The notes: generated by a model not told the origin, from the letters alone. Numbered from the stretch's first letter, positions 3,048-14,463 are shown. The stretch is 24,772 nucleotides of DNA from a virus (IMGVR_UViG_3300030103_003921:1-24772), one strand, 5' to 3'. Program-made: numbers and translations.

Positions 3048-4256
3048 ATGTCGGTAACCCGAACATTCACAGTAACAGTAGTAAGCACTGGTTCCGGCAA
3101 TAAATATTTTATTGATGGAGTACAACAAGCTACTTTAGAATTAGTTGAAGGTGCAACTTTTAGATTTGATCAATCTGATTATACAAACGTAAATCACCCT
3201 TTAAGATTTTCTGAAACTTCAGATGGAACACATGGGGGTGGTTCTCAGTATACCACTAACGTAACTACAAACGGAACTCCAGGAGCATCTGGAGCTTACA
3301 CACAAATTGAAGTAGCTTCTAGCGCACCAACTCTTTATTACTATTGTACAAATCACTCAGGCATGGGTGGACAAGCAAATACACCCAACTCTGATTTTTG
3401 GGGAGCAGGAAACTGGAGTGCAAATCTTTGGGGAATTGAAGAAGCTTTTGCTTTAGGTTGGGGTGCACAAGCTTGGAATGATGGTGAATGGGGAGCACTT
3501 AATGACGTAACTTTTACACTTACCGGAGTTTCTTCTACTTCATCACTAGGTTCACCTACAGTTACAGCAGACATAAATACAGGTTGGGGACAAGATGGTT
3601 GGGGAGTTGAAAACTGGGGTCAGTCTGGACTAACAGTTGTAATACCTACAGGTGTTCAAGCAACTACAGGTATTGGAGAAGATGTAAGTTGGGGTAAACA
3701 AACATGGGGCTCTGCAACAACTGGTTGGGGTGGTGAATATTATTTAGAAGTTGCTGAGGTAATGGAATTAACTGGATTGTCTGCAACATCAGCTGTTGGA
3801 TCACCAACAGCTATTTCTGATTTTACTGGAACTCTTACAGGAGTTTCTGCAACATCAAGTGTTGGGTCTTTAGATCCTGCAGATCAAGTTATGGGATTAA
3901 CTGGCTTAGGAACTACATCATCAACAGGAACAATAGATCCTGCAGATCAAACTATGGGATTGACAGGATTAAGTGCAACATCAGCCATTGGTGATTTACT
4001 AGTAAGTGCAAATCCTACTATAACTGTAACAGGATTATCAACAACTTCTTCTGTAGGAGCATTAACTCCAGCAGATGTTATAGGATTAACAGGAGTTTCA
4101 ACAACTTCTTCTACAGGTTTATTAACACCACCAGATGCTCTAGGATTGACAGGAGTTTCAGCAACTGCTAGTGTTGGTAATGTAGGACCACTAGGATATG
4201 AACGAATAACTGCTACACAGAGCGCTGGTTATACACGCGTTACTGCTGGTAATTAA
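3048..4256 (+). CDS. Tail or fibre protein with a cupredoxin-like copper-site domain and tandem repeats
   Basis: The protein has 402 residues in three parts. Residues 1-110 look like a cupredoxin: a beta-rich stretch with His50 (NVNHPLRFS) and then Cys100, His103 and Met106 in YYYCTNHSGMGG. His plus C-x2-H-x2-M is the ligand pattern of a type 1 copper site. Residues 117-149 and 180-228 are rich in Trp-Gly pairs (GWGQDGWGVENWG). Residues 241-378 are seven tandem repeats of 20-22 residues built on LTG(V/L)S(A/T)TSS(V/T)G, with an earlier copy at 158. Such repeats suit an extended fibre or shaft. Copper binding is inferred; a structural cupredoxin fold without metal is the alternative. Confidence 0.65.
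   Translation: MSVTRTFTVTVVSTGSGNKYFIDGVQQATLELVEGATFRFDQSDYTNVNHPLRFSETSDGTHGGGSQYTTNVTTNGTPGASGAYTQIEVASSAPTLYYYCTNHSGMGGQANTPNSDFWGAGNWSANLWGIEEAFALGWGAQAWNDGEWGALNDVTFTLTGVSSTSSLGSPTVTADINTGWGQDGWGVENWGQSGLTVVIPTGVQATTGIGEDVSWGKQTWGSATTGWGGEYYLEVAEVMELTGLSATSAVGSPTAISDFTGTLTGVSATSSVGSLDPADQVMGLTGLGTTSSTGTIDPADQTMGLTGLSATSAIGDLLVSANPTITVTGLSTTSSVGALTPADVIGLTGVSTTSSTGLLTPPDALGLTGVSATASVGNVGPLGYERITATQSAGYTRVTAGN
3768..4181 (+). repeat. Seven in-frame tandem repeats of about 60-66 bp inside a virion gene
   Basis: The encoded units begin at residues 241, 263, 284, 305, 327, 347 and 367 of the host protein. The core is LTG(V/L)S(A/T)TSS(V/T)G, followed by a variable linker such as SLDPADQVMG or ALTPADVIG. 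At the DNA level the copies keep elements such as ggattaacagga and gcaacatca but have drifted apart. They therefore look like old protein repeats and not a recent expansion. Confidence 0.75.
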
Positions 4257-4323: not shown

Positions 4324-5541
4324 ATGGCATCAACTTATACGGCTCTCGGTGTAGAACTAATGGCAACTGGTGAAAACGCCGGTACATGGGGAACAAAAAC
4401 TAACACCAACTTAAACATAATCGAACAAATTTCTGGTGGATATACTGCACAATCAATTGCAGGTGGAGCACAAACTACAGCGCTTACGGTTTCTGATGGA
4501 TCAACTGGTGCTACCATGTCTCATAGAATGATTGAGTTTACAGGTTCAATCACTGGAAACCAAATTGTAACAATTCCTTTAGATGCACAAACTTTTTATT
4601 TTTTAAGAAATTCAACATCAGGTGCTTACACAGTACAATTTAAATATGCATCAGGTTCTGGTGATACATTTACTTTTTCTGCAACAGATAAAGGTGATCA
4701 ACTTGTATTTGCTACAGCAAACGATGGAACTAACCCTGATATTTATACATTAAATTTTGGTGATGTAACTCTTGACGGAACACAAACTTTAACAAATAAA
4801 ACTTTAACTAGTCCTAAAATTGGAACTGCAATTTTAGATACGAGTGGAAACGAATTAATTAATCTTACTGCAACAGGATCAGCTGTTAATGAAATTACAT
4901 TAGCAAATGCCGCTTCAGGTAATGCACCTAGTATTACTGCTTCTGGTGAAACTAACGTAAGTCTTAACCTTGTTCCAAAAGGAACAGGTACATTACAAGG
5001 TAATGGTTCTGCTATAAAAATAGCAGGAAAAGAAACTATATGGGTTCCGGCTGCAGCAATGTATGCTTCAACTACTAATGGAGCTGATTCAGAACAAGTT
5101 GAAACAACAGCAACAAGACCAGATATGAAAGTATTTGATTTTGATGCTAGTACACAACAATACACACAATTTACAATAGCCATGCCAAAATCATGGAATG
5201 AAGGTACCTTAACTTACCAAGTTTATTGGGCACCTAGCACGACTAACACAGGAAATGCTATTTTTGGTTTACAAGGTGTTGCATGTGCAGATGGTGATAC
5301 TATCGACGTTGCATTTGGAACAGCTATAGAAGTTACAGACGCTGGTATAGGAACAGTTGAAGACCAACAAATTACAAGTGAAAGTAGTGCTATGACAGTT
5401 GCGGGTTCTCCTGCAGCAGGTGAACAATCTTACTTTCAATTATTTAGAAAAGCTGCAGACGGTGGAGATACATTCACTGGTGAATGTAGAGTTCTTGGTG
5501 TTAAATTATTCTTTACTACTGACGCGGCTAACGACGCATAA
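4324..5541 (+). CDS. Tail fibre / major tail-appendage protein
   Basis: The protein has 405 residues. The N-terminus (MASTYTALGVELMATGENAG then WGTKTNTNLNIIEQ) is of a type seen at the start of marine phage fibre proteins. In the middle, DVTLDGTQTLTNKTLTSPKIG is the classic TLTNKTL fibre motif, followed by a short beta repeat ending in NLVPKGTGTLQGNG. The C-terminal domain from about residue 237 (WVPAAAMYAST, then TIAMPKSWNEGTLTYQVYW) resembles a beta-sandwich tip found on many marine phage fibres. No enzyme motif is seen. Receptor recognition or tail-appendage structure is inferred from these motifs and from the adjacent glycine-rich fibre gene. Confidence 0.75.
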   Translation: MASTYTALGVELMATGENAGTWGTKTNTNLNIIEQISGGYTAQSIAGGAQTTALTVSDGSTGATMSHRMIEFTGSITGNQIVTIPLDAQTFYFLRNSTSGAYTVQFKYASGSGDTFTFSATDKGDQLVFATANDGTNPDIYTLNFGDVTLDGTQTLTNKTLTSPKIGTAILDTSGNELINLTATGSAVNEITLANAASGNAPSITASGETNVSLNLVPKGTGTLQGNGSAIKIAGKETIWVPAAAMYASTTNGADSEQVETTATRPDMKVFDFDASTQQYTQFTIAMPKSWNEGTLTYQVYWAPSTTNTGNAIFGLQGVACADGDTIDVAFGTAIEVTDAGIGTVEDQQITSESSAMTVAGSPAAGEQSYFQLFRKAADGGDTFTGECRVLGVKLFFTTDAANDA

Positions 5542-5552
5542 GGAATTTAGAT

Positions 5553-6533
5553 ATGAAAAAAATAGACACACCTTTAGTATTCGAGGGTAAAGGAAATAAA
5601 AATAAAAAATCAAGTAGAGGTAAAATGTTTGGTTACCAAGTCTTAGGATTTGGTTCTGGTGGTGGAGTTAGTCCACCAATAGATGTTGATTATTTAGTTG
5701 TGGCTGGCGGAGCGGCTGGAGGCGGCGGATCTGGCGGCGGAGGAGCTGGCGGATACAGAACATCTTTTCCAGGAGGAACTAAAATTACAATCGAATCTGG
5801 ATCTACTTATACTGTAGGAGCTGCAGGAACTTGGGATGCACCAAATCAATGGGGTAACCCTGGCGGAAATTCAACTGCTGGAAATATTTCATCAACTGGA
5901 GGAGGAGCAGGAGCACCTGTATCTGGATCTGGTAATCCAGATGATACTCCAACAAGATATAATGGTGGTGGAGCTGGATCAAATGGCGGATCTGGCGGAG
6001 GATCTGGACACCGAGGAACACAAGCTTCATCAGGAAATTTAGGGGGCTATTCACCATCAGAAGGAAATAATGGTGGTTCTCCAAGCGATAATGGTTACGC
6101 TGGCGGAGGTGGCGGCGGTATCGGTTCTGTTGGAGGAAATGGAAACGCTTCTGGTCCAAGCTCAGGTGGTGGCGCTGGTGGAAACGGTACAACAAATAAT
6201 ATTACAGGATCACCCGTAGGTTATTCTGCTGGAGGCGGTGGTGGCCCTTGGCAAGGCGGTGGTGCATCCGGAGGATCGCCAGGAGGTGGAAACGGAGCTC
6301 CTTATCCAAATTCATCTGGTAATGCAGCGTCAACTAAAGGCTCAGGCGGTGGTGCAGCAGGAGTAATTAATAACTCACCTAAAACAGCAGGAGCTGGTGG
6401 AGCCGGTCACGTTGTTTTAAAAATGCCTGCTGATCAAAGTTACACAATTGCTCCAGGATCAAATACAATAACTGATCACCCAGGTGGTGATAAAATTGCA
6501 ACATTTAATGTAACGGGGACTTTAAGCTGGTAA
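5553..6533 (+). CDS. Glycine-rich tail-fibre protein
   Basis: The protein has 326 residues. From about residue 45, DYLVVAGGAAGGGG begins a glycine-rich domain that fills most of the protein, with Gly in runs of two to five alternating with Ser, Asn and Ala. It closes with AGGAGHVVLKMP and a C-terminal beta segment (NTITDHPGGDKIATFNVTG). Such domains form polyglycine-II-type or beta-helical tips on phage fibres, usually for receptor adhesion. The ATG at 5553 has AAGGA eight bases upstream. Met25 at 5625 (MFGYQVLGFGSGG) is a plausible alternative start that removes a lysine-rich leader. The stop overlaps the next start by one base. Confidence 0.8.
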   Translation: MKKIDTPLVFEGKGNKNKKSSRGKMFGYQVLGFGSGGGVSPPIDVDYLVVAGGAAGGGGSGGGGAGGYRTSFPGGTKITIESGSTYTVGAAGTWDAPNQWGNPGGNSTAGNISSTGGGAGAPVSGSGNPDDTPTRYNGGGAGSNGGSGGGSGHRGTQASSGNLGGYSPSEGNNGGSPSDNGYAGGGGGGIGSVGGNGNASGPSSGGGAGGNGTTNNITGSPVGYSAGGGGGPWQGGGASGGSPGGGNGAPYPNSSGNAASTKGSGGGAAGVINNSPKTAGAGGAGHVVLKMPADQSYTIAPGSNTITDHPGGDKIATFNVTGTLSW

Positions 6534-6955
6534 TGAGTAAAATTTTTGCACAACTAGATGATAATAATGTAGTCACTAATATATTAGAAGGTGACGATAG
6601 TGATACAGATTTAAGTGTTTCTAAAAGAACTAATTCAACATGTATGACAGTTAATGAAGGAATTGGAATAGGGTATATTTGGCAATCTGAAAATAATAGA
6701 TTTATTAGTCGTCAACCTTATGATGATTGGACATTAAACAATGAAACAGGAAAATGGGAATGTCCTGTAGCAGAACCTTCATCAAGTAATTATACAGATT
6801 CAGAAAACGTAACTACAGATTTACAACCATGGGATTTATATTGGGTTCCTGATCAAGATAGATGGGAATGTATGTCTGCAAGCTTATCAGAAGACAAACT
6901 TCCTAGTACTTTTTATTGGGACCCTTCTAATTCTACTTGGAATCTTATTTCATAA
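6533..6955 (+). CDS. Small fibre-associated protein with Trp-rich repeats
   Basis: The protein has 140 residues. It begins MSKIFAQLDDNNVVTNILEG, a beta segment I associate with fibre-adjacent proteins in marine phages. It then has three hairpin-like units rich in Trp and Asp: FISRQPYDDWTLNNETGKWE, LYWVPDQDRWEC and FYWDPSNSTWNL. The repeat spacing suggests small beta-hairpins that may cap or fold a fibre. It is coupled to the glycine-rich fibre gene by TAATG, implying a joint role as accessory tip or chaperone. It is the last virion gene before the oxygenase cluster. The exact function is not known to me. Confidence 0.6.
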   Translation: MSKIFAQLDDNNVVTNILEGDDSDTDLSVSKRTNSTCMTVNEGIGIGYIWQSENNRFISRQPYDDWTLNNETGKWECPVAEPSSSNYTDSENVTTDLQPWDLYWVPDQDRWECMSASLSEDKLPSTFYWDPSNSTWNLIS

Positions 6956-7000: not shown

Positions 7001-7621
7001 ATGCAGTTAGAATTTGATTATTGGTGGTTTAAAGAAACATTGCCTAAATTATTATGTAAGGACATAATTAATTTTGCAAAATCTAAAAATGATTTAAGAT
7101 TTGGAATTATAGAAGGTATTGAAGGTGTTAATAAAAAAAGTAAACGATTAAATAAAAAACAAAAAGAAAAAACATTTAAAACAAGAAATTCAAATATTGT
7201 TTGGTTAAACGAACCATGGATTACTAATAAAGTAATACCCTATATAAAAGCTGCAAATAAACAAGCTGGTTGGAATTTTGATTTTGAAAGTTGTGAGAGC
7301 ATGCAATTTACAATATATAAAAAAGGACAATATTATAATTGGCATTCGGATTGCGGCATTAAACTAGATAAAGATGGTCAAATTAGAAAATTGTCTGCTT
7401 CTATTATATTAAATGATCCTTCTGAATTTGAAGGAGGAGAATTAGAATTTTGTCATTATACAAAACCAAATGAAAAAATAATTTTAAGCACTGAAAAACA
7501 ATTAACAACCGCAGGCTCTATGGCTGTTTTTCCTTCATTTATATTTCATAGAGTCAAACCAGTTACGAAAGGAGTGAGATATTCATTAGTTGTATGGCTA
7601 AGAGGTTTCCCATTAAAGTAA
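7001..7621 (+). CDS. 2OG-Fe(II) oxygenase, prolyl-4-hydroxylase/PKHD-like
   Basis: The protein has 206 residues and the most canonical sequence of the cluster. Iron ligands are visible as His115 and Asp117 in NWHSD and His183 in FPSFIFHRV. Arg193, ten residues later in KGVRYSLVVWLRG, is the 2-oxoglutarate-binding residue. FEGGELEF (143-150) is the usual strand between them. The end resembles PKHD-type hydroxylases such as PiuC. Such enzymes couple decarboxylation of 2-oxoglutarate to hydroxylation of a protein side chain or small molecule; the substrate here is unknown. A weak AAAGAA precedes the ATG. It is the first gene of the cluster and overlaps the next by 28 bases. Confidence 0.85.
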   Translation: MQLEFDYWWFKETLPKLLCKDIINFAKSKNDLRFGIIEGIEGVNKKSKRLNKKQKEKTFKTRNSNIVWLNEPWITNKVIPYIKAANKQAGWNFDFESCESMQFTIYKKGQYYNWHSDCGIKLDKDGQIRKLSASIILNDPSEFEGGELEFCHYTKPNEKIILSTEKQLTTAGSMAVFPSFIFHRVKPVTKGVRYSLVVWLRGFPLK

Positions 7622-8103
7622 TAAAAAACTTTTTAAGTAAAGAACAGCATTTATTTATAGCAGATAAATTTAATGAACTGCCTTGGTTTTTTAATTCTGA
7701 AAACTATAAAACAAAACCGGATAATAATTTTATGTTTAATCATTCATTTTTATATAATGGTGAATCAACTAGTAATTATTATGATGCTTTAATATTGCCA
7801 ATTGTTTTAAAATTAAAAAGTATAGTAAAGTTTGAAAATTTATTAAGAGTTAAGGGTAATATGTATACTAATCAAAATAAGTTTATTGAACATGTTTCAC
7901 ATAGAGATATAGAAAACACTTCTAGTAATTATATAATTGGAGTATATCATATTAACACTTGTAATGGTTATACAAAAGTAGGAAGTAAAAAAATAACGTC
8001 ATTAGAAAATCAAATGATATTATTTGATAACAAAGAAAAACATTGTGGTTCTGTTCAAACAGATACACAAAGAAGAATGTTAATTAATTTTATAATACAA
8101 TGA
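7594..8103 (+). CDS. 2OG-Fe(II) oxygenase-like protein, NGYT/QTDT subgroup
   Basis: The protein has 169 residues. Probable iron ligands are His103 and Asp105 (VSHRDIE) and His150 (KEKHCGSV), with Arg160 or Arg161 (TDTQRRMLINF) for 2-oxoglutarate. The segment NGYTKVGSKKITSLENQMILFD and the ending QTDTQRRMLINF closely parallel the gene at 11686-12180, and LLRVKGN is shared in form with that gene and the one at 10648, marking a three-member paralogous group. The ATG lies 28 bases inside the upstream gene. No later ATG would keep the N-terminal IKVIKNFLSKEQ that the paralogues share. The substrate is unknown. Confidence 0.7.
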   Translation: MAKRFPIKVIKNFLSKEQHLFIADKFNELPWFFNSENYKTKPDNNFMFNHSFLYNGESTSNYYDALILPIVLKLKSIVKFENLLRVKGNMYTNQNKFIEHVSHRDIENTSSNYIIGVYHINTCNGYTKVGSKKITSLENQMILFDNKEKHCGSVQTDTQRRMLINFIIQ

Positions 8104-8714
8104 GTTTTAATAAAAAAGGATATCAATTAATTAAAAAAGTCATACCTCAAGATATGGCTAAACTAGCTAGTAATTATTTATTAGTTAAAGAACAAGTTCT
8201 TAACACTTTATTAAAAAGTAAAGTTATAAGTCCTTATCAACAAGAACACGGTATAAATAACGACACACAAGTTGTGGGAGCTTTTTCTATATATGGAGAT
8301 GTATTAATGGATTGTTTCTTGTTAAAATTACAAAAACAAGTAGAAAAAATTACAAAACAAAAACTTTTTCCAACGTATTCTTATGCACGTGTTTACAAAA
8401 ACGGAAATGAATTAAAAATACATAAAGACAGAAACGAATGTAAATTTTCAACTACTCTTAATTTAGGTGGAGATAGTTGGCCAATCTACATGGGTAATAC
8501 ACCGGTAACTTTAAACCCTGGTGATATGATTGTTTACAAAGGATGCGATATAAAACACTACAGAAAACCTTTTACAGGTAGTTATTGTACTCAAGTTTTT
8601 TTACATTATGTAGACGAAGAGTTTAAAAAAAATGTATTAGATGGTCGACCACATATTGGTTTATCTAGATTTAAAGGTTTAGAAGAGGGAATGAGATATG
8701 TCTACGATAACTAA
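8100..8714 (+). CDS. 2OG-Fe(II) oxygenase-like protein lacking an obvious 2OG arginine
   Basis: The protein has 204 residues. His108 and Asp110 (KIHKDRNECKFSTTLNLGG) form the HxD motif and His153 (GCDIKHYRKPF) the distal ligand, preceded by LNPGDMIVYKG, the usual turn before that strand. Ten to twelve residues after His153, where Arg or Lys is normal, the sequence reads CTQV; only Arg155 and Lys156 lie nearby. The 2-oxoglutarate contact must therefore be unusual, or the group uses another residue. The stretch QVFLHYVDEEF and the C-terminal extension to residue 204 match no other gene here. It starts on an ATGA overlap with the upstream stop and overlaps the next gene by 17 bases. Confidence 0.7.
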   Translation: MSFNKKGYQLIKKVIPQDMAKLASNYLLVKEQVLNTLLKSKVISPYQQEHGINNDTQVVGAFSIYGDVLMDCFLLKLQKQVEKITKQKLFPTYSYARVYKNGNELKIHKDRNECKFSTTLNLGGDSWPIYMGNTPVTLNPGDMIVYKGCDIKHYRKPFTGSYCTQVFLHYVDEEFKKNVLDGRPHIGLSRFKGLEEGMRYVYDN

Positions 8715-9330
8715 TTTATTTCCAACTCCTGTTTTAATTTCAGAACTAGGAAGAGATTTTACAAAAAAAGAAATTAATTTTGTAAAAAATACTTTTAATA
8801 AATGTCGTACAAATAGAGGCAATAAAATATCAATAGACCATTTTATCTTAAATAATAAAGAATTAAAAAATATTAAAAAATTTATTAATAATCAATGCAG
8901 TTATTATTTAAAAAATATAATATGCCCTGCTAATAAAGATATTGAATTATATGTTACTATTTCTTGGTTAAACTATACTTCAATTAATGGGTATCATCAT
9001 ACTCATGCTCATCAAAATTCTGTTGTGTCTGGAGTTTTTTATTTTGATGTAGACGAAACAGAAGATAGTATTACTTTTGTTAAAAACGGATATAATCAAA
9101 TAGAAGTTGTCCCTTCAAATTTTAATCCATGGAATTCAAGAACATGGTGGTTGCCTGCTAAAAACGGCAGATTATTAATGTTTCCATCTAGTTTAAATCA
9201 TGGAGTTCCAACTAAAAAAGAAAACAAAACAAGAGTAAGTTTATCTTTTAATACGTTTATTAAAGGCGAACTAGGTGATGTAGATTCTTCAACCTACTTG
9301 AATATTAATAAAAGTAGTATATACAAGTAA
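8698..9330 (+). CDS. Putative 2OG-Fe(II) oxygenase of the TIGR02466/2OG-FeII_Oxy_5 type
   Basis: The protein has 210 residues. The N-terminal LFPTPVLISEL is typical of this family. GYHHTHAHQNSVVSGVFYF (residues 99-117) matches its conserved H-x-H, Asn-Ser and SGVxYF signature. The distal motif is MFPSSLNHGV with His168, and Arg179 (KTRVSLSFN) lies 11 residues on. The family carries a second His where most 2OG enzymes have Asp, so the iron site is atypical but normal for the family. Biochemical function is poorly known. The start lies 17 bases inside the upstream gene, with GAGGGA nearby. An 11-base gap follows, the only true gap in the cluster. Confidence 0.8.
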   Translation: MSTITNLFPTPVLISELGRDFTKKEINFVKNTFNKCRTNRGNKISIDHFILNNKELKNIKKFINNQCSYYLKNIICPANKDIELYVTISWLNYTSINGYHHTHAHQNSVVSGVFYFDVDETEDSITFVKNGYNQIEVVPSNFNPWNSRTWWLPAKNGRLLMFPSSLNHGVPTKKENKTRVSLSFNTFIKGELGDVDSSTYLNINKSSIYK

Positions 9331-9341
9331 ACGAAAGCTTT

Positions 9342-9818
9342 ATGAAAAAGAACGAAAGATTGGTTAAAAATTTTTGTAAATTTGAAAACTGTGATTTTAA
9401 TATGATTGGCCAGTTATTTAAAACTGGAAATTTTAAGTCTATACATAGCAGTATGTGGAACAATGACTATGTTTTAAATTCAACGTTTCAAATAAGAGAC
9501 GTTCAAAATCATGTAATATTTCAAAAAATATACAATAAATTTAACGAGTTTTATAAGTTACCAAATCATTATCATTCTAACTTAGATATATTTTTTTCTT
9601 TTGCTCCAGGCACATCTAGCAGTACACATAAAGATAATTATAGTGTAGGAATATTAGCAGCTTATAATGATGTTATAGTTAGAGTAGAAGATCAAAACTA
9701 TATACTTAACCAAGGTGATTTGATTAGTATTAACGCAAATGAAACTCATCAAGTTATTGGAATAAATCCAAGAGTAATACTTTCATATGGTTATACAATT
9801 AAAGGAGAAAAACTATGA
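9342..9818 (+). CDS. Cupin / 2OG-Fe(II) oxygenase-like protein
   Basis: The protein has 158 residues, among the shortest in the cluster. After a helical N-terminus, SFAPGTSSSTHKDNYSVG gives His96 and Asp98. ILNQGDLISINANETHQVIG gives His136, and Arg144 in PRVILSYGY completes a 2-oxoglutarate-type site. The spacing and the phrase GDLISI.ANETH resemble cupin or JmjC-like domains more than prolyl hydroxylases. The protein is nearly all core fold with little room for an added domain. It has an 11-base gap upstream and an ATGA overlap downstream with the coiled-coil gene. The substrate is unknown. Confidence 0.7.
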   Translation: MKKNERLVKNFCKFENCDFNMIGQLFKTGNFKSIHSSMWNNDYVLNSTFQIRDVQNHVIFQKIYNKFNEFYKLPNHYHSNLDIFFSFAPGTSSSTHKDNYSVGILAAYNDVIVRVEDQNYILNQGDLISINANETHQVIGINPRVILSYGYTIKGEKL

Positions 9819-10090
9819 ATGACAATACAATAATAAAATTAAAAAATAAAATCCAGTTTTTAGAAGAGGAAATAAAAATGCTTCAAGAATCAAAACAACA
9901 GGAAATTAATGTTAAAAATTCTGAAGTTATGCTTAATAGAGATTTACAATCACAAATAGAAACTCTAAAAATATATGTTGAAACATTAATTAAAGTTAAT
10001 GATACTTTTGTAAAACAAATTTCTGAATTAAGAGTTAGACTTAAAAATATTGTTTTAGATGTTGATTATGAAACCACACGAGATAAATAA
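9815..10090 (+). CDS. Small coiled-coil protein inside the oxygenase cluster
   Basis: The protein has 91 residues, nearly all predicted helix. Heptad-like spacing of I, L and V runs from IKLKNKIQFLEEEIKMLQES through LQSQIETLKIYVETLIKV to FVKQISELRVRLKNIV. It has no His-rich motif, membrane span or cysteine. It is the only gene of the cluster without an oxygenase fold. It begins on ATGA with the upstream cupin-like gene and is overlapped by up to 32 bases by the next gene, so it is made together with them. A dimerisation or scaffold subunit is possible, but this is only inferred. Confidence 0.7.
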   Translation: MNDNTIIKLKNKIQFLEEEIKMLQESKQQEINVKNSEVMLNRDLQSQIETLKIYVETLIKVNDTFVKQISELRVRLKNIVLDVDYETTRDK

Positions 10091-10658
10091 ATTAAATAAT
10101 TTTATTGGTGGTTTTTATATAAATAAAAGTGCCTGTAAAAAATTAATAAAACTTTTTAAAGACAATCAAAACATTACTGAAAGAGGAATGTCTTACGGAA
10201 AAAATAGTAAAAAGATTATTAATAAAAAAATGAAAGCTTCAACAGATCTTTGTTTAACTCCAAGTCCAATTTATGATTATTATTTTAACGAATTACAAAA
10301 ATGTTTAAAAGAATATATAAAACAATATCCTTCAGTTGATTTACTACCTCGTTTTAGAATAATGGAAGATTGTAATATACAAAAATATAAAAAGAATGAA
10401 GGATTTTTTAAATGGCATTTTGAAAGAGGACATGGATTTACTTTAAAAAGAGTACTAGTTTGGATGACGTATTTAAATACAGTTGAAGATGGTGGACAAA
10501 CAGAATTTAAACATCAAAAATTAAAAATAAAACCAGAAGAAGGTCTTACTTTAATTTGGCCATCTGATTGGACACATACACACCGAGGAATTACTTCTAA
10601 AACACAAACTAAATATATTATAACTGGTTGGTACAGTTTGGATTCTGATGATAATTAA
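10059..10658 (+). CDS. 2OG-Fe(II) oxygenase, prolyl-4-hydroxylase-like with an HxE motif
   Basis: The protein has 199 residues. FFKWHFERG gives His120 and Glu122 in place of the usual HxD. RVLVWMTYLNTVEDGGQTEF (131-150) is the signature of a marine-phage prolyl-4-hydroxylase-like group. WPSDWTHTHRG gives the distal His175, and Lys185 (TKYIITGWY), ten residues on, replaces the 2-oxoglutarate Arg. HxE with Lys is, to my knowledge, normal for this subgroup and not damage. Met4 at 10068 is an alternative start that shortens the overlap with the coiled-coil gene from 32 to 23 bases. The substrate is unknown. Confidence 0.8.
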   Translation: MLIMKPHEINKLNNFIGGFYINKSACKKLIKLFKDNQNITERGMSYGKNSKKIINKKMKASTDLCLTPSPIYDYYFNELQKCLKEYIKQYPSVDLLPRFRIMEDCNIQKYKKNEGFFKWHFERGHGFTLKRVLVWMTYLNTVEDGGQTEFKHQKLKIKPEEGLTLIWPSDWTHTHRGITSKTQTKYIITGWYSLDSDDN

Positions 10659-11172
10659 AGAGTGTAAAAATTTTTTAAGTAACAATAGCAAATTAAATAT
10701 TAATAGTATTATAGCAGATCCTCATTTTCCTTATTACATGAGTTCTTCTCATCAAAATAATTTAGAATATCCTTATTTATCACACATAGTATTAAAAAGA
10801 CCGGAAGAAAGAAATCATAAAGATTTTAATTCTCCTTATGCAAATTTATTTTTAAATATTTTAAAAGAGTTTGAAAATAAAAATAATATTAAAGTAAATC
10901 AACTTTTAAGAATTGCAGTAAATCTAACTTTTAATTTTGGTAAAAAAAATTCTTTTACACACAAAGATCATGACTTTGATCATAAACAATTAATTATTTA
11001 TTTAAACGATTGTGATAAAAATGCAAAAACTGTAATTTTAAATAATGATAAAAAAATAATTAAAAAAATTACTCCAGAAAAATTTAAGGGTTTACTGTTT
11101 GATAGTTGTTATCATTATATGATTTATCCTAAAAAAGGATACAGAGTAATAGCGGTATATACTTTTACATGA
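10648..11172 (+). CDS. 2OG-Fe(II) oxygenase-like protein, divergent member
   Basis: The protein has 174 residues. His105 and Asp107 (SFTHKDHDFDHKQLIIYLND), His156 (DSCYHYMIYP) and Arg166 (GYRVIAVYTF) are correctly spaced for a complete 2OG-Fe(II) site. LLRIAVNLTF before the HxD parallels LLRVKGN and LIRIKANLT in the genes at 7594 and 11686, so these three probably share an ancestor, although this one lacks their NGYT and QTDT segments. Extra histidines (108, 112) follow the HxD. It starts 11 bases inside the upstream gene and ends in an ATGA overlap. Very high Lys, Asn and Ile content reflects the local AT richness. Confidence 0.65.
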   Translation: MIIKECKNFLSNNSKLNINSIIADPHFPYYMSSSHQNNLEYPYLSHIVLKRPEERNHKDFNSPYANLFLNILKEFENKNNIKVNQLLRIAVNLTFNFGKKNSFTHKDHDFDHKQLIIYLNDCDKNAKTVILNNDKKIIKKITPEKFKGLLFDSCYHYMIYPKKGYRVIAVYTFT

Positions 11173-11702
11173 TTATACAAAAACACATAGAAAAACAAGT
11201 TCCCCAAGATTATATGTTTATAGAAGGTACTATAGATATAGATGCAAATTATTTTATTAATAAAATTAAAAAAGGTTTTTTAAGAGAAGACAATAACAAT
11301 CACCACACTAACATAAAAGATAGAATGACTTCATGGAGTTATTTTAATCAAGACCAGAAATTTTTAGAAATATTAAATAAATTTATTTTTTATATTGATC
11401 AAAACATATCTTTACCGGCTTATTGTTTACGTGAGTCATGGGGATATAATATAAGCACAGAAAACCAAACAGCAGAACATGACCATAGACCACACATATG
11501 GTCTGGTGTTTTATATTTAAATAAACATAATCAAACGTTAGATTTTAGAGAAATATCTAAAAAAGTAAAACCTGAAAAAGGAAAATTTGCTTTGTTTTCT
11601 GGTTTTTTAAAACATCAATCTTTAACTCATTATGAAAAAGACAGCAAATGGGGAATAAGTTTTAATATGGGCACTTCTGTAACATATGAAAATAATAGAT
11701 AA
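11169..11702 (+). CDS. Putative 2OG-Fe(II) oxygenase with an H-x-H motif
   Basis: The protein has 177 residues. LRESWGYNIS leads into AEHDHRPHIWSGVLYLN (His104, His106, then SGVLYLN). This is the same H-x-H plus SGVxY arrangement as the gene at 8698-9330, so it probably belongs to the 2OG-FeII_Oxy_5-like group. VKPEKGKFALFSGFLKHQS gives the distal His149. No Arg follows at the usual distance, but Lys160 (DSKWGISFNMG) lies 11 residues on and may substitute. It starts with ATGA on the upstream stop and overlaps the last cluster gene by 17 bases. The substrate is unknown. Confidence 0.7.
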   Translation: MIIQKHIEKQVPQDYMFIEGTIDIDANYFINKIKKGFLREDNNNHHTNIKDRMTSWSYFNQDQKFLEILNKFIFYIDQNISLPAYCLRESWGYNISTENQTAEHDHRPHIWSGVLYLNKHNQTLDFREISKKVKPEKGKFALFSGFLKHQSLTHYEKDSKWGISFNMGTSVTYENNR

Positions 11703-12180
11703 CTTTATAGATCAAGAGTCTTTTAATAAACTAAAAGATACTATGTATGATAATGGTAATTCATTTCCATGGTATCATTGTCACTATAAAAATTTTAAAG
11801 GAGATGGCATGTCTCAATTCGTACATATGTTTTTTACACCATATAGTTATTGTTCTGACTTTCACCCTTTAATACACCCTATTCTCGATAAATTAAATGC
11901 CACAGCTTTAATAAGAATAAAAGCTAATTTAACTATGAAAACTCAAAAACCTCACGTATGTGATTTTCACACAGATGTTGTAGATTATTACAAACATTCA
12001 AAAACTGCTGTTTTTTATATAAACAATAATAATGGTTATACTTTATTTAAAAAAGGTAAGAAAAAAGTTGAAAGCGTAGAAAATAGAATAGTTATTTTTG
12101 ATGCAAAACAAGAACATACTACGGTTACTCAGACAGATACCAATATTCGAATTGTACTCAACTTAAATTTTTACAATTGA
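11686..12180 (+). CDS. 2OG-Fe(II) oxygenase-like protein, NGYT/QTDT subgroup
   Basis: The protein has 164 residues. CDFHTDVVD gives His95 and Asp97, AKQEHTTV gives His144, and Arg155 (TNIRIVLNLNF) fits the 2-oxoglutarate position. NNNNGYTLFKKGKKKVESVE, IVIFD and TQTDT are shared with the gene at 7594-8103, its closest relative in the window, although seven genes lie between them. It starts at MKIIDNFIDQESF, equivalent to IKVIKNFLSKEQ in the relative, which supports the ATG 17 bases inside the upstream gene. It closes the cluster: a promoter-like sequence and a 63-base intergenic gap follow. The substrate is unknown. Confidence 0.75.
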   Translation: MKIIDNFIDQESFNKLKDTMYDNGNSFPWYHCHYKNFKGDGMSQFVHMFFTPYSYCSDFHPLIHPILDKLNATALIRIKANLTMKTQKPHVCDFHTDVVDYYKHSKTAVFYINNNNGYTLFKKGKKKVESVENRIVIFDAKQEHTTVTQTDTNIRIVLNLNFYN

Positions 12181-12243: not shown

Positions 12244-14463
12244 ATGCTACAAAAATTAGGATTTTTACCAGGTTTTAATAAACAAGTTACATCTACAGGA
12301 GCCGAATCTCAATGGACAGGGGGAGAAAATGTACGTTTTAGATATGGTACTCCAGAAAAAATAGGTGGTTGGTCTCAATTAGGAGACAGTAAATTAACTG
12401 GTGCAGCTAGAGGTTTGCATCACATGGTTAATAAAGACGGTATTAAATATGCAATTATTGGAACTAATAGAATACTGTATGCTTATTCTGGACAAGTATA
12501 CTATGACATACACCCTTTAGTTAATCCATCAGGAACAGCTATTACAAATGCATTTAGCACGACTAACGGATCACCGATTGTAACTATTACATTTGGTAGT
12601 CCACATAGTTTTGAAGCTGGGGACATTATATTATTTGGTGAGACAAGTACGTTTAGCGCTATTACAGGTTCTAATTTTGGTGCTGCAGATTTTTGTGATA
12701 AAAAATTTATGGTAACAAGCATACCCTCTGCTACTACTATAACTATTACAATGGATAGTAGTGAAGGAGGAGCAGGAGCTACAACTTCTGGAGGCATAAC
12801 TTTTTTTCAATACTATCATGTAGGTCCAGCAGAACAAGTTGGGGTTTTTGGATGGGGTATATCTCAATGGGGTGGAACAGCGACTGCACCTCAAACAACA
12901 ACTTTAAATGGTGCATTATTAAATGACGCTAATGGTACTGGTGGATCAGGAACTAGTATTACATTAACATCCACACTTAATTTTCCAACAACAGGAACAA
13001 ATTTTATTCAGGTAGGCACTGAAGAAATTTCTTACACAGGTGTATCTGGAAATGATTTAACGGGTATCACAAGAGCTGTAAGAGGAACAACTAGAGCTGC
13101 TCATAGCAACGGTGCTACTGTAACTAATTATAGTGAATATTCGGGTTGGGGTCAGTCATCTGTTAACACAGATACTGTTGCTGAACCTGGTATGTGGGCA
13201 TTAGATAATTTAGGAAGTACACTTATTGCTTTAATTTTTAACGGAGAATGTTTTGAATGGGATGCAGATGCAACAAATGCTACAAACACTAGAGCTACAA
13301 TTATTACAGGTGCACCAACAGCGTCACGTGATATGTTAGTATCTACACCCGATCGTCACTTAGTATTCTTTGGAACAGAAACAACGATTGGAGATAAGTC
13401 ATCTCAAGACGACATGTTTATAAGATTTTCGTCTCAAGAAAATATTAATGACTACACACCTACAGCAACCAATAGTGCTGGTACACAAAGACTGGCCGAC
13501 GGATCACGGATCATGGGAGCTGAACTTGGTAGAAATGCATTATATGTTTGGAGTGATACAGCTCTATTTACCATGCGTTTTGTAGGAACTCCTTTTACAT
13601 TTGCCTTTGAGCAGGTAGGTACTAACTGTGGATTAATTGGTAAGAATGCAGCTGTTGAAGTTGATGGTGCTGCATATTGGATGTCTGATAATGGTTTCTT
13701 TAGATACACAGGTAAACTAGAATCGATGGATTGTTTAGTTGAAGACTATGTTTATGACAATCTTAACACAACATCTAATCAAATGGTTTATGCAGGTATC
13801 AACAACTTGTTTGGTGAAGTTACTTGGTTTTATCCAGAAGCTAACTCTAATGTAAATACACAATCAGTTACATATAGTTATTTAGATTCTACTGCCAAAC
13901 GACCTATATGGTTTGTTAATGCAAGTCCTTTGTTTATTAGAACTACATGGCAAGATTCATCTGTATTTGGTTTACCTCATGGAACGCAATATGATGCTGA
14001 CACAGATACTTCATTTGATGTAACAGGAAACACGGAAGGTGTTTCTTATTATTATGAACATGAGACAGGTGTTAATCAAGTAAGACTGGGGGTAACAACA
14101 GCTATTCCAGCTAATATAACTTCTGGTGATTATGATATTACACAAAAAGTTGTTAGAGGTGCAGCAACTAATTTAGGTGACCTTAGAGGTGATGGTGAAA
14201 ACATTATGAGAGTTAGTAGAATTATACCTGATTTTATATCTCAACAAGGAAGTTCTATTATACAATTAGATTTAAGAAATTATCCTAACGACACAGCCGC
14301 AAGTTCATCACTTGGACCTTTTACAATAACAAGTGGTACAACAAAAGTAGATACACGAGCTAGAGCAAGAGCCATAGCTCTTACAATATCTAATACGGCA
14401 GTAGATACCAGTTGGAAATTAGGAACTTTTAGGTTAGATATACATGCTGGAGGAAGACGATAA
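12244..14463 (+). CDS. Large tail-nozzle / packaged-DNA-stabilisation-like protein
   Basis: The protein has 739 residues. The N-terminus (LGFLPGFNKQVTSTGAESQW, then GGENVRFRYGTPEKIGGW) resembles the opening of beta-propeller tail proteins of the P22 gp10/T7 gp12 kind, which form the tail nozzle and plug packaged DNA. Residues 222-298 are an inserted beta module (ITLTSTLNFPTTGTNFIQVG, YTGVSGNDLTGITRAVRG, HSNGATV) shared with the protein at 1032-1847. Later parts are beta-rich with Trp and Gly (GLIGKNAAVEVDGAAYWMSD). The C-terminus ends in SNTAVDTSWKLGTFRLDIHA. It is longer than gp10 (about 470 residues), partly because of such insertions. There is no clear ribosome-binding site. The assignment is tentative. 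Confidence 0.65.
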   Translation: MLQKLGFLPGFNKQVTSTGAESQWTGGENVRFRYGTPEKIGGWSQLGDSKLTGAARGLHHMVNKDGIKYAIIGTNRILYAYSGQVYYDIHPLVNPSGTAITNAFSTTNGSPIVTITFGSPHSFEAGDIILFGETSTFSAITGSNFGAADFCDKKFMVTSIPSATTITITMDSSEGGAGATTSGGITFFQYYHVGPAEQVGVFGWGISQWGGTATAPQTTTLNGALLNDANGTGGSGTSITLTSTLNFPTTGTNFIQVGTEEISYTGVSGNDLTGITRAVRGTTRAAHSNGATVTNYSEYSGWGQSSVNTDTVAEPGMWALDNLGSTLIALIFNGECFEWDADATNATNTRATIITGAPTASRDMLVSTPDRHLVFFGTETTIGDKSSQDDMFIRFSSQENINDYTPTATNSAGTQRLADGSRIMGAELGRNALYVWSDTALFTMRFVGTPFTFAFEQVGTNCGLIGKNAAVEVDGAAYWMSDNGFFRYTGKLESMDCLVEDYVYDNLNTTSNQMVYAGINNLFGEVTWFYPEANSNVNTQSVTYSYLDSTAKRPIWFVNASPLFIRTTWQDSSVFGLPHGTQYDADTDTSFDVTGNTEGVSYYYEHETGVNQVRLGVTTAIPANITSGDYDITQKVVRGAATNLGDLRGDGENIMRVSRIIPDFISQQGSSIIQLDLRNYPNDTAASSSLGPFTITSGTTKVDTRARARAIALTISNTAVDTSWKLGTFRLDIHAGGRR

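Follow-up and report, generated by a model that had tools for sequence, protein, structure and literature searches.

A stretch of 24,772 nucleotides (IMGVR_UViG_3300030103_003921:1-24772; this whole stretch is called the window), which covers nearly the whole of a 26,650-base uncultivated virus record, carries ten tightly packed plus-strand open reading frames (ORFs), g1 to g10, at positions 7001-12180, with fibre genes upstream (to 6955) and a nozzle-like gene downstream. Eight of these ten genes (g1, g2, g3, g4, g7, g8, g9 and g10) belong to the 2-oxoglutarate (2OG)-Fe(II) oxygenase superfamily by profile or fold, and a ninth, g5, is probably also of the 2OG type judging from its sequence. 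We propose, with a probability of about 0.5, that this island is a tailoring cassette whose enzymes would add hydroxyl groups to the phage's own distal fibre ahead of assembly, prolines of a glycine-rich adhesin being the targets of g3. This reading is supported by the constant slot of the island, the exchange of fibres, the association of g3 with fibre proline, the g3 fold, a bacterial locus encoding a QPSPG-repeat peptide and the additional cargo of related islands.

Eight 2OG-Fe(II) oxygenases and a probable ninth

Pfam and PHROG profiles assign g1, g2, g4, g7, g8, g9 and g10 to 2OG-Fe(II) families, with matches above the curated Pfam cut-offs for g1 and g7 (PF13640) and for g4 and g9 (PF13759); the double-stranded beta-helix was seen directly, by structure model, for g3 only, the other genes being placed by profile. 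PDB matches were 3dkq/PiuC for g1 (E=5e-10 to 8e-7) and 2rg4 and 3bvc for g4. The H-x-D (g1, g2, g3, g8, g10) or H-x-E (g7) motif and the distal His are constant or almost constant across the 11-48 homologues compared for each family (motif residues in Table 1; 48/48 homologues for g1 and 44/44 for g3), and the iron-binding motif which an earlier note on this DNA had read from the sequence is retained in relatives. g4 and g9 carry H-x-H, which is likewise kept within their families, so the third iron ligand is not fixed by the motif. As for the basic residue after the distal His, Arg is invariant in g1, g2, g4, g8 and g10, g7 has Lys in 22 of 24 sequences, and no such residue is invariant in g9. 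A motif match alone was rejected as proof, given a chance rate of 8-20% (H-x-[DEH]...H...[RK] occurs in 20% of composition shuffles and in 8% of unrelated ORFs of similar size), and its presence in 9 of 10 consecutive genes is far above that rate. Regarding g5, it shares phrog_4992 with Syn9 gp49, a JmjC_2 protein, its Cupin_2 match lies below the Pfam cut-off, and the Arg of its motif is present in 5/5 g5 sequences; its AlphaFold (AF2) model was of low confidence (pLDDT 36), with too few homologues available.

The earlier note had described nine consecutive oxygenases among ten overlapping genes. The ten ORFs lie where it placed them, eight enzymes of several subfamilies in an operon-like arrangement hold by profile or fold, and g6 is indeed no oxygenase; the ninth enzyme is only probable, and eight of the nine junctions overlap, the g4/g5 junction being an 11-bp gap. 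The whole gene set, in unchanged order, is found in three other contigs (L003, L093 and L094) and, minus g10, in a close relative (L092). Compared with the most diverged contig of the same order, every island gene showed a dN/dS of 0.07-0.30 (0.07 for g10), and all ten are under purifying selection. Because the motifs are intact, the gene order is kept and dN/dS is in this range, the island genes are predicted very probably to encode working enzymes.

The family of g3, phrog_2954, comprises 156 phage records and bears the label 'ferrochelatase' in Synechococcus, Prochlorococcus and Pelagibacter phages. Its AF2 model (pLDDT 92), a 204-aa single domain whose fold spans residues 1 to ~198, has the 2OG fold, in line with the beta-helix that the earlier note had expected structure prediction to give. 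When the model was compared with the PDB by Foldseek and VIA-align, the 50 matches listed by each aligner all belonged to the 2OG superfamily, and prolyl hydroxylases were numerous among them (Foldseek E=1.8e-8; VIA Z about 15-16, up to 16.6); no chelatase-fold structure was listed, although a list of this kind does not prove absence. The best Foldseek match was 4iw3, the Pseudomonas putida prolyl hydroxylase PPHD solved in complex with EF-Tu; g3 shares with this enzyme, PHD2 and the viral vCPH (5c5t) both the fold and the H-x-D...H iron site, at an identity of only 10-14%. R155 and Q165 are the candidates for its 2OG anchor, the assignment being ambiguous. No ferrochelatase Pfam match was obtained for g3 up to E=10, nor in 42 phrog_2954 members at E<=1. 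On the structural model, phrog_2954 is thus a predicted prolyl-hydroxylase-like 2OG oxygenase family that has been widely mislabelled.

The second misleading name concerns phrog_274 (g2, g8 and g10), called 'DNA endonuclease V', in which 13 of 41 members match PF13640 at E<=0.01 (best 2e-8) and 0/41 match an endonuclease V or DenV Pfam family; by these profile matches it is a putative 2OG oxygenase family. A profile-profile comparison of g3 with phrog_274 gave no significant score. Both names should be replaced in marine phages. Phage ferrochelatases have been described as co-occurring with 2OG oxygenases (PMC9599517; PMC11561400); with phrog_2954 read as a 2OG family, this co-occurrence would be a neighbourhood of 2OG oxygenases, and the reannotation removes 'phage ferrochelatase' from the ideas on iron and heme metabolism put forward in those papers.

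Fibre proline and the presence of g3

In a Pyrinomonadaceae metagenome-assembled genome, a g3 relative lies beside a peptide gene and a JmjC_2 gene. The peptide (L208 1565-1834) resembles a precursor of ribosomally synthesised and post-translationally modified peptides (RiPPs), with a leader ending in GG and a core containing four QPSPG repeats, and this neighbourhood suggests Gly/Pro-rich sequence as the target of g3. In the discovery loci, distal fibres contained 5.6% Pro when g3 was present and 3.2% when it was absent (p=4e-4), Pro ranking top of the 20 residues. The proline test was fixed beforehand and 160 new loci were then fetched, with one departure from the fixed plan, the second query being the HTVC023P nozzle instead of that of contig L177. 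Both new clades showed the link in the same direction (one-sided p=0.024 and 0.0034), and across 78 deduplicated loci it held when stratified by nozzle clade (p=5e-5) and also by island size (p=8e-4).

The link is specific in its location. Gly-rich adhesin ORFs had 6.4% Pro with g3 versus 2.2% without (stratified permutation p<=1e-4), and no link of g3 to Pro was seen in the nozzle (p=0.90), the proximal fibre (0.49) or the island proteins (0.22). It persisted after correction for GC and Gly content, and GC content was rejected as its cause. When each of 8 families was paired with each of 20 residues, g3-Pro and g7-Pro ranked strongest, the latter being rejected as independent because g3 explains it. 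Nozzle-matched pairs agreed in 25 of 28 cases, including 10 of the 12 close pairs (similarity >=0.7). In the pelagiphage HTVC033P, which lies outside the nozzle sets and whose 2OG genes include g3, two fibre-region proteins encoded just upstream have 34% Gly and 6-7% Pro. HTVC023P bears g3 as well, and HTVC027P lacks it.

In the window, the adhesin gene (5553-6533) encodes 21 prolines, several of them before GG. Gly-rich (PGII-type) fibre-tip adhesins exist, as in gp38 of S16-like phages, and the predicted product appears to resemble them as a Gly-rich distal fibre with PGG motifs, although its Gly_rich_2 match is sub-threshold (E=0.027). We know of no modification of such adhesins, and the literature searched contained nothing relevant on phage fibre hydroxylation or on a prolyl hydroxylase acting on fibres.

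Exchange of fibres and island points in the same direction in some lineages. L005 has a nozzle 96% identical to that of the window, yet its distal fibres and island are completely different; both are swapped there, and of the proximal fibre protein F4324 only the first ~140 aa are kept (75% identity, tblastn). L094, whose nozzle is only 67% identical, nevertheless keeps both the fibres and the island of the window, at 72-96%. Over 31 loci, a Mantel test gave r about 0.44-0.45 between fibre and island similarity versus 0.11 between nozzle and island, the former being significant overall; a general co-similarity of fibre and island is suggestive only, its signal coming from a few groups.

Several observations weigh against the fibre as substrate. 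The Mantel correlation between fibre and island falls to -0.03 once the cultured loci and those with inverted islands are left out. Taken by itself, clade A shows a modest proline link (one-sided p=0.024), clade B holds only three g3-positive loci and Pro is not its top residue, and matching by fibre similarity left only two usable pairs; because fibre and island travel together, independent events are also fewer than loci. When VIA matches of g3 are ranked by Z, the epimerase SnoN comes first, and the substrate is thus not fixed by the fold alone. Contig L177 carries an 81% identical copy of g10 (10001-10492) within a different seven-gene island and beside other fibres, which indicates that single genes move independently. 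The N-terminal domain of F6533, the small fibre-associated protein, has no 2OG genes nearby in 38 of its 44 occurrences, and F6533 was therefore rejected as a general substrate. The association between g3 and proline is a correlation and not proof. Among the roles suggested in the earlier note, fibre side-chain hydroxylation is nevertheless the best supported.

A modular cassette in a common setting

By virion gene order and homologous virion genes, the window phage is assigned to the HTVC023P-type pelagiphages, and is thereby predicted to be a marine phage related to those infecting SAR11 bacteria. The genes A229 to D2597, F4324 and the nozzle gene have homologues in HTVC023P and HTVC027P, with matching order in HTVC027P, and the nozzle-like protein (Table 1) is about 45% identical to those of HTVC027P, HTVC023P and 023Pt_psg01. 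The location of the island between fibre genes and a nozzle-like gene, as the earlier note had it, agrees with the ORFs, phrog_3287 and the fibre PHROGs. A megablast of the window against phages returned no match, and a promoter scan gave no excess over shuffles. Weak Pfam matches of g10 and F4324 to delta-endotoxin domains were discarded as chance-level and below cut-off. The nozzle has at least 599 relatives in IMG/VR, this phage group being very abundant in public data.

Table 1. Island genes and neighbouring virion genes in the window, with the motif residues of each island enzyme
Feature	Coordinates	Strand	Motif	Matches
Fibre-like protein	3048..4256	+		PHROG phrog_30742/693 (tail fibre)
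F4324, proximal fibre protein	4324..5541	+		phrog_31104
Distal Gly-rich adhesin-like fibre, proposed substrate	5553..6533	+		phrog_2295
F6533, small Trp-rich fibre-associated protein	6533..6955	+		phrog_7759/14370
g1, 2OG-Fe(II) oxygenase, PKHD/P4H type	7001..7621	+	H115-x-D117...H183...R193	PF13640 E=2.8e-16, phrog_61
g2, 2OG oxygenase, Asp/Asn-hydroxylase/LpxO-like	7594..8103	+	H103-x-D105...H150...R161	phrog_274 ('DNA endonuclease V')
g3, 2OG oxygenase, prolyl-hydroxylase-like fold (model)	8100..8714	+	H108-x-D110...H153	phrog_2954 ('ferrochelatase'); AF2 model
g4, 2OG oxygenase	8698..9330	+	H103-x-H105...H168...R179	PF13759/TIGR02466, Pfam E=3.4e-20
g5, cupin/JmjC-like, least certain member	9342..9818	+	H96-x-D98...H136...R144	Cupin_2 E=8.8e-5; phrog_4992 E=7.7e-12
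g6, 91-aa coiled coil, not oxygenase	9815..10090	+		weak coiled-coil matches only
g7, 2OG oxygenase	10059..10658	+	H120-x-E122...H175	PF13640 E=1.3e-12; phrog_61 E=1.6e-46
g8, 2OG oxygenase	10648..11172	+	H105-x-D107...H156...R166	phrog_274 E=2.2e-24
g9, 2OG oxygenase	11169..11702	+	H104-x-H106...H149	PF13759 E=8.4e-7, above cut-off
g10, 2OG oxygenase, distant paralogue of g2 (33%)	11686..12180	+	H95-x-D97...H144...R155	phrog_274 E=2.1e-42
Nozzle/stabilisation-like virion protein, 739 aa, conserved right border of island	12244..14463	+		phrog_3287 E=2.5e-95

All 31 complete nearest loci (31/31, window included) have 1-11 2OG genes between the distal fibre genes and the nozzle, more distant relatives have 0-10 in the island, and gene order and composition are reshuffled among them; the island is a modular cassette with fast turnover. 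In L049, L079, L081 and L083 (HTVC027P) it lies wholly or mostly on the minus strand, and a tail-collar-type fibre replaces the Gly-rich one. Other cargo of relatives' islands comprises flavin-dependent halogenases (PF04820), carbamoyltransferases (PF02543/PF16861), sulfotransferases, APS-kinase-like P-loop proteins and methyltransferases, and looks like a tailoring kit in which hydroxyls are installed and then decorated. Flavin-dependent tryptophan-halogenase-like genes occupy the slot in L021, L028, L038, L048, L053, L063 and L064 (recognised by sequence resemblance in L048 and L064), and carbamoyltransferase genes occur in L037, L063, L068 and L081, the gene being split into two ORFs in L063 and in L081. 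A 422-aa ORF of L015 (1752-3017) is a sulfotransferase fused with an Asp/Asn beta-hydroxylase domain, an ORF of similar size being present in L073, and a family of ~108 aa without Pfam match lies in or beside the islands of L033 (5730-6059), L053, L061, L075 and L045.

Contrary to what the earlier note had supposed, the array is not exceptional. Given the 1-11 genes in the same slot of relatives, the ten of a further contig (L144), the ten of Syn9 and the published phages with many 2OG genes, it is a long example of a common and poorly described feature, and arrays of this sort lie next to fibre or baseplate genes in HTVC033P, Mosig, HTVC008M, Syn9 and S-SCSM1. Syn9, a T4-like myovirus unlike the window phage, has ten consecutive genes (gp45-gp54, NC_008296; families phrog_81, 1644, 2696, 8014/4992, 61, 274 and 2954) that likewise adjoin fibre genes, directly following these and two Trp halogenases; in its record three of the ten are named 2OG oxygenases, the others being 'minor coat protein', 'DNA endonuclease V', 'ferrochelatase' or unnamed. 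The 'minor coat protein' family phrog_1644 includes gp46 and gp52 (L107 4071-4862 and 7803-8414), of which gp52 cross-matches phrog_274 and PF13640/DUF6445; judging from sequence, phrog_1644 is probably another 2OG family.

Two published cases come closest. HTVC023P-type pelagiphages, the same group as the window by nozzle similarity (45%), have eight non-orthologous 2OG genes near 'ferrochelatases' (PMC9599517), which there are nearby but non-adjacent, whereas the nine of the window are contiguous; the available part of that paper treats ferrochelatase as a heme enzyme, while in the window the 'ferrochelatase' would itself be a 2OG oxygenase, and does not include in its account of the 2OG genes the fibre link proposed here. 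Cyanophage S-SCSM1, with 24 2OG genes (PMC9602691), shares with the window a large divergent repertoire partly adjoining tail fibre genes; in the available part of that paper they are not described as a single array or as fibre-modifying, and the virion proteins named there include no 2OG oxygenase.

Competing readings of the island

If the cassette tailors the fibre, its enzymes, encoded beside the fibre genes, would presumably be made late with the virion proteins and would place hydroxyls on side chains of the phage's distal fibre before that fibre is assembled. Prolines of the Gly-rich adhesin would be the substrate of g3 (8100-8714), and other residues, in that protein or in neighbouring fibre proteins, would fall to the remaining enzymes. 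In relatives, sulfotransferases, carbamoyltransferases and flavin halogenases may then add further groups to these hydroxyls or to other side chains. Such decoration may alter host recognition or fibre stability, or allow escape from host defences.

The rival that survives best, although we judge it unlikely, is that the enzymes modify host surface glycans, lipopolysaccharide or lipid A, a change of receptor that would block superinfection or spare progeny. Linkage to fibres would be expected here too, as receptor and fibre must match, and the exchange of fibres and islands fits equally well. In addition, weak similarities link g2 with LpxO, a hydroxylase of lipid A (E=0.0011), and g4 with a carbohydrate-cluster 2OG oxygenase (E=2e-5), but both scores are far below curated cut-offs. 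Carbamoyl- and sulfotransferases, present in relatives' islands, are typical glycan decorators, whereas flavin halogenases are, to our knowledge, not usual glycan enzymes, and a proline link confined to the adhesin is not predicted.

We consider it rather improbable that the cassette makes a diffusible peptide or small molecule, or modifies host proteins such as EF-Tu or ribosomal proteins, leaving the virion uninvolved. The EF-Tu complex of 4iw3, the JmjC_2 domain of Syn9 gp49, which is a domain of ribosomal oxygenases, the RiPP-like locus around the bacterial g3 relative and the likeness of the cargo to natural-product tailoring enzymes would all suit such a role. However, we noticed neither a precursor peptide nor a scaffold-building enzyme in the island and its flanks, the slot is part of the block of virion genes, and in some lineages a change of fibres goes together with a change of the enzyme set.

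Auxiliary metabolism is a very improbable explanation. Cyanophage 2OG genes have been proposed to shift 2OG/succinate and nitrogen signalling (PMC3037559) and phage ferrochelatase to serve iron metabolism (PMC9599517), and iron-uptake genes rise in SAR11 infected by HTVC027P (PMC12753301); but a drain on 2OG would need no nine divergent enzymes of changing composition under purifying selection, the 'ferrochelatase' is, by its profile searches and model, very probably no ferrochelatase, and we found no support for the tapping of the host TCA cycle that the earlier note had envisaged. Least credible of all is its suggestion of DNA or RNA base modification or repair of TET/JBP or AlkB type, for although some HTVC023P-type phages bear thymidine hypermodification genes (PMC9599517) and the best, non-significant PDB match of the phrog_274 profile is a DNA N6-methyladenine demethylase (E=0.09), none of the ten window proteins matched AlkB or TET/JBP Pfam families, the genes sit in a virion block and the proline association is left unexplained.

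Few 'auxiliary metabolic genes' of ocean phages are as common as those for 2OG-Fe(II) oxygenases, whose substrate has long been an open question. If the link to fibres holds, a large class of supposed metabolic genes would be virion-modification machinery, and host recognition in some very abundant marine phage groups would involve chemistry invisible to sequence. It is possible, and we put it forward tentatively, that marine phages run a RiPP- or collagen-like line of post-translational tailoring on their receptor-binding fibres. Exchangeable cassettes of 2OG hydroxylases, joined by halogenases, sulfotransferases and carbamoyltransferases, would equip each type of fibre with a chemistry of its own, beginning with hydroxyproline; if true, this line would carry fibre diversity past the 20 amino acids, to the benefit of host range or of escape from defences.

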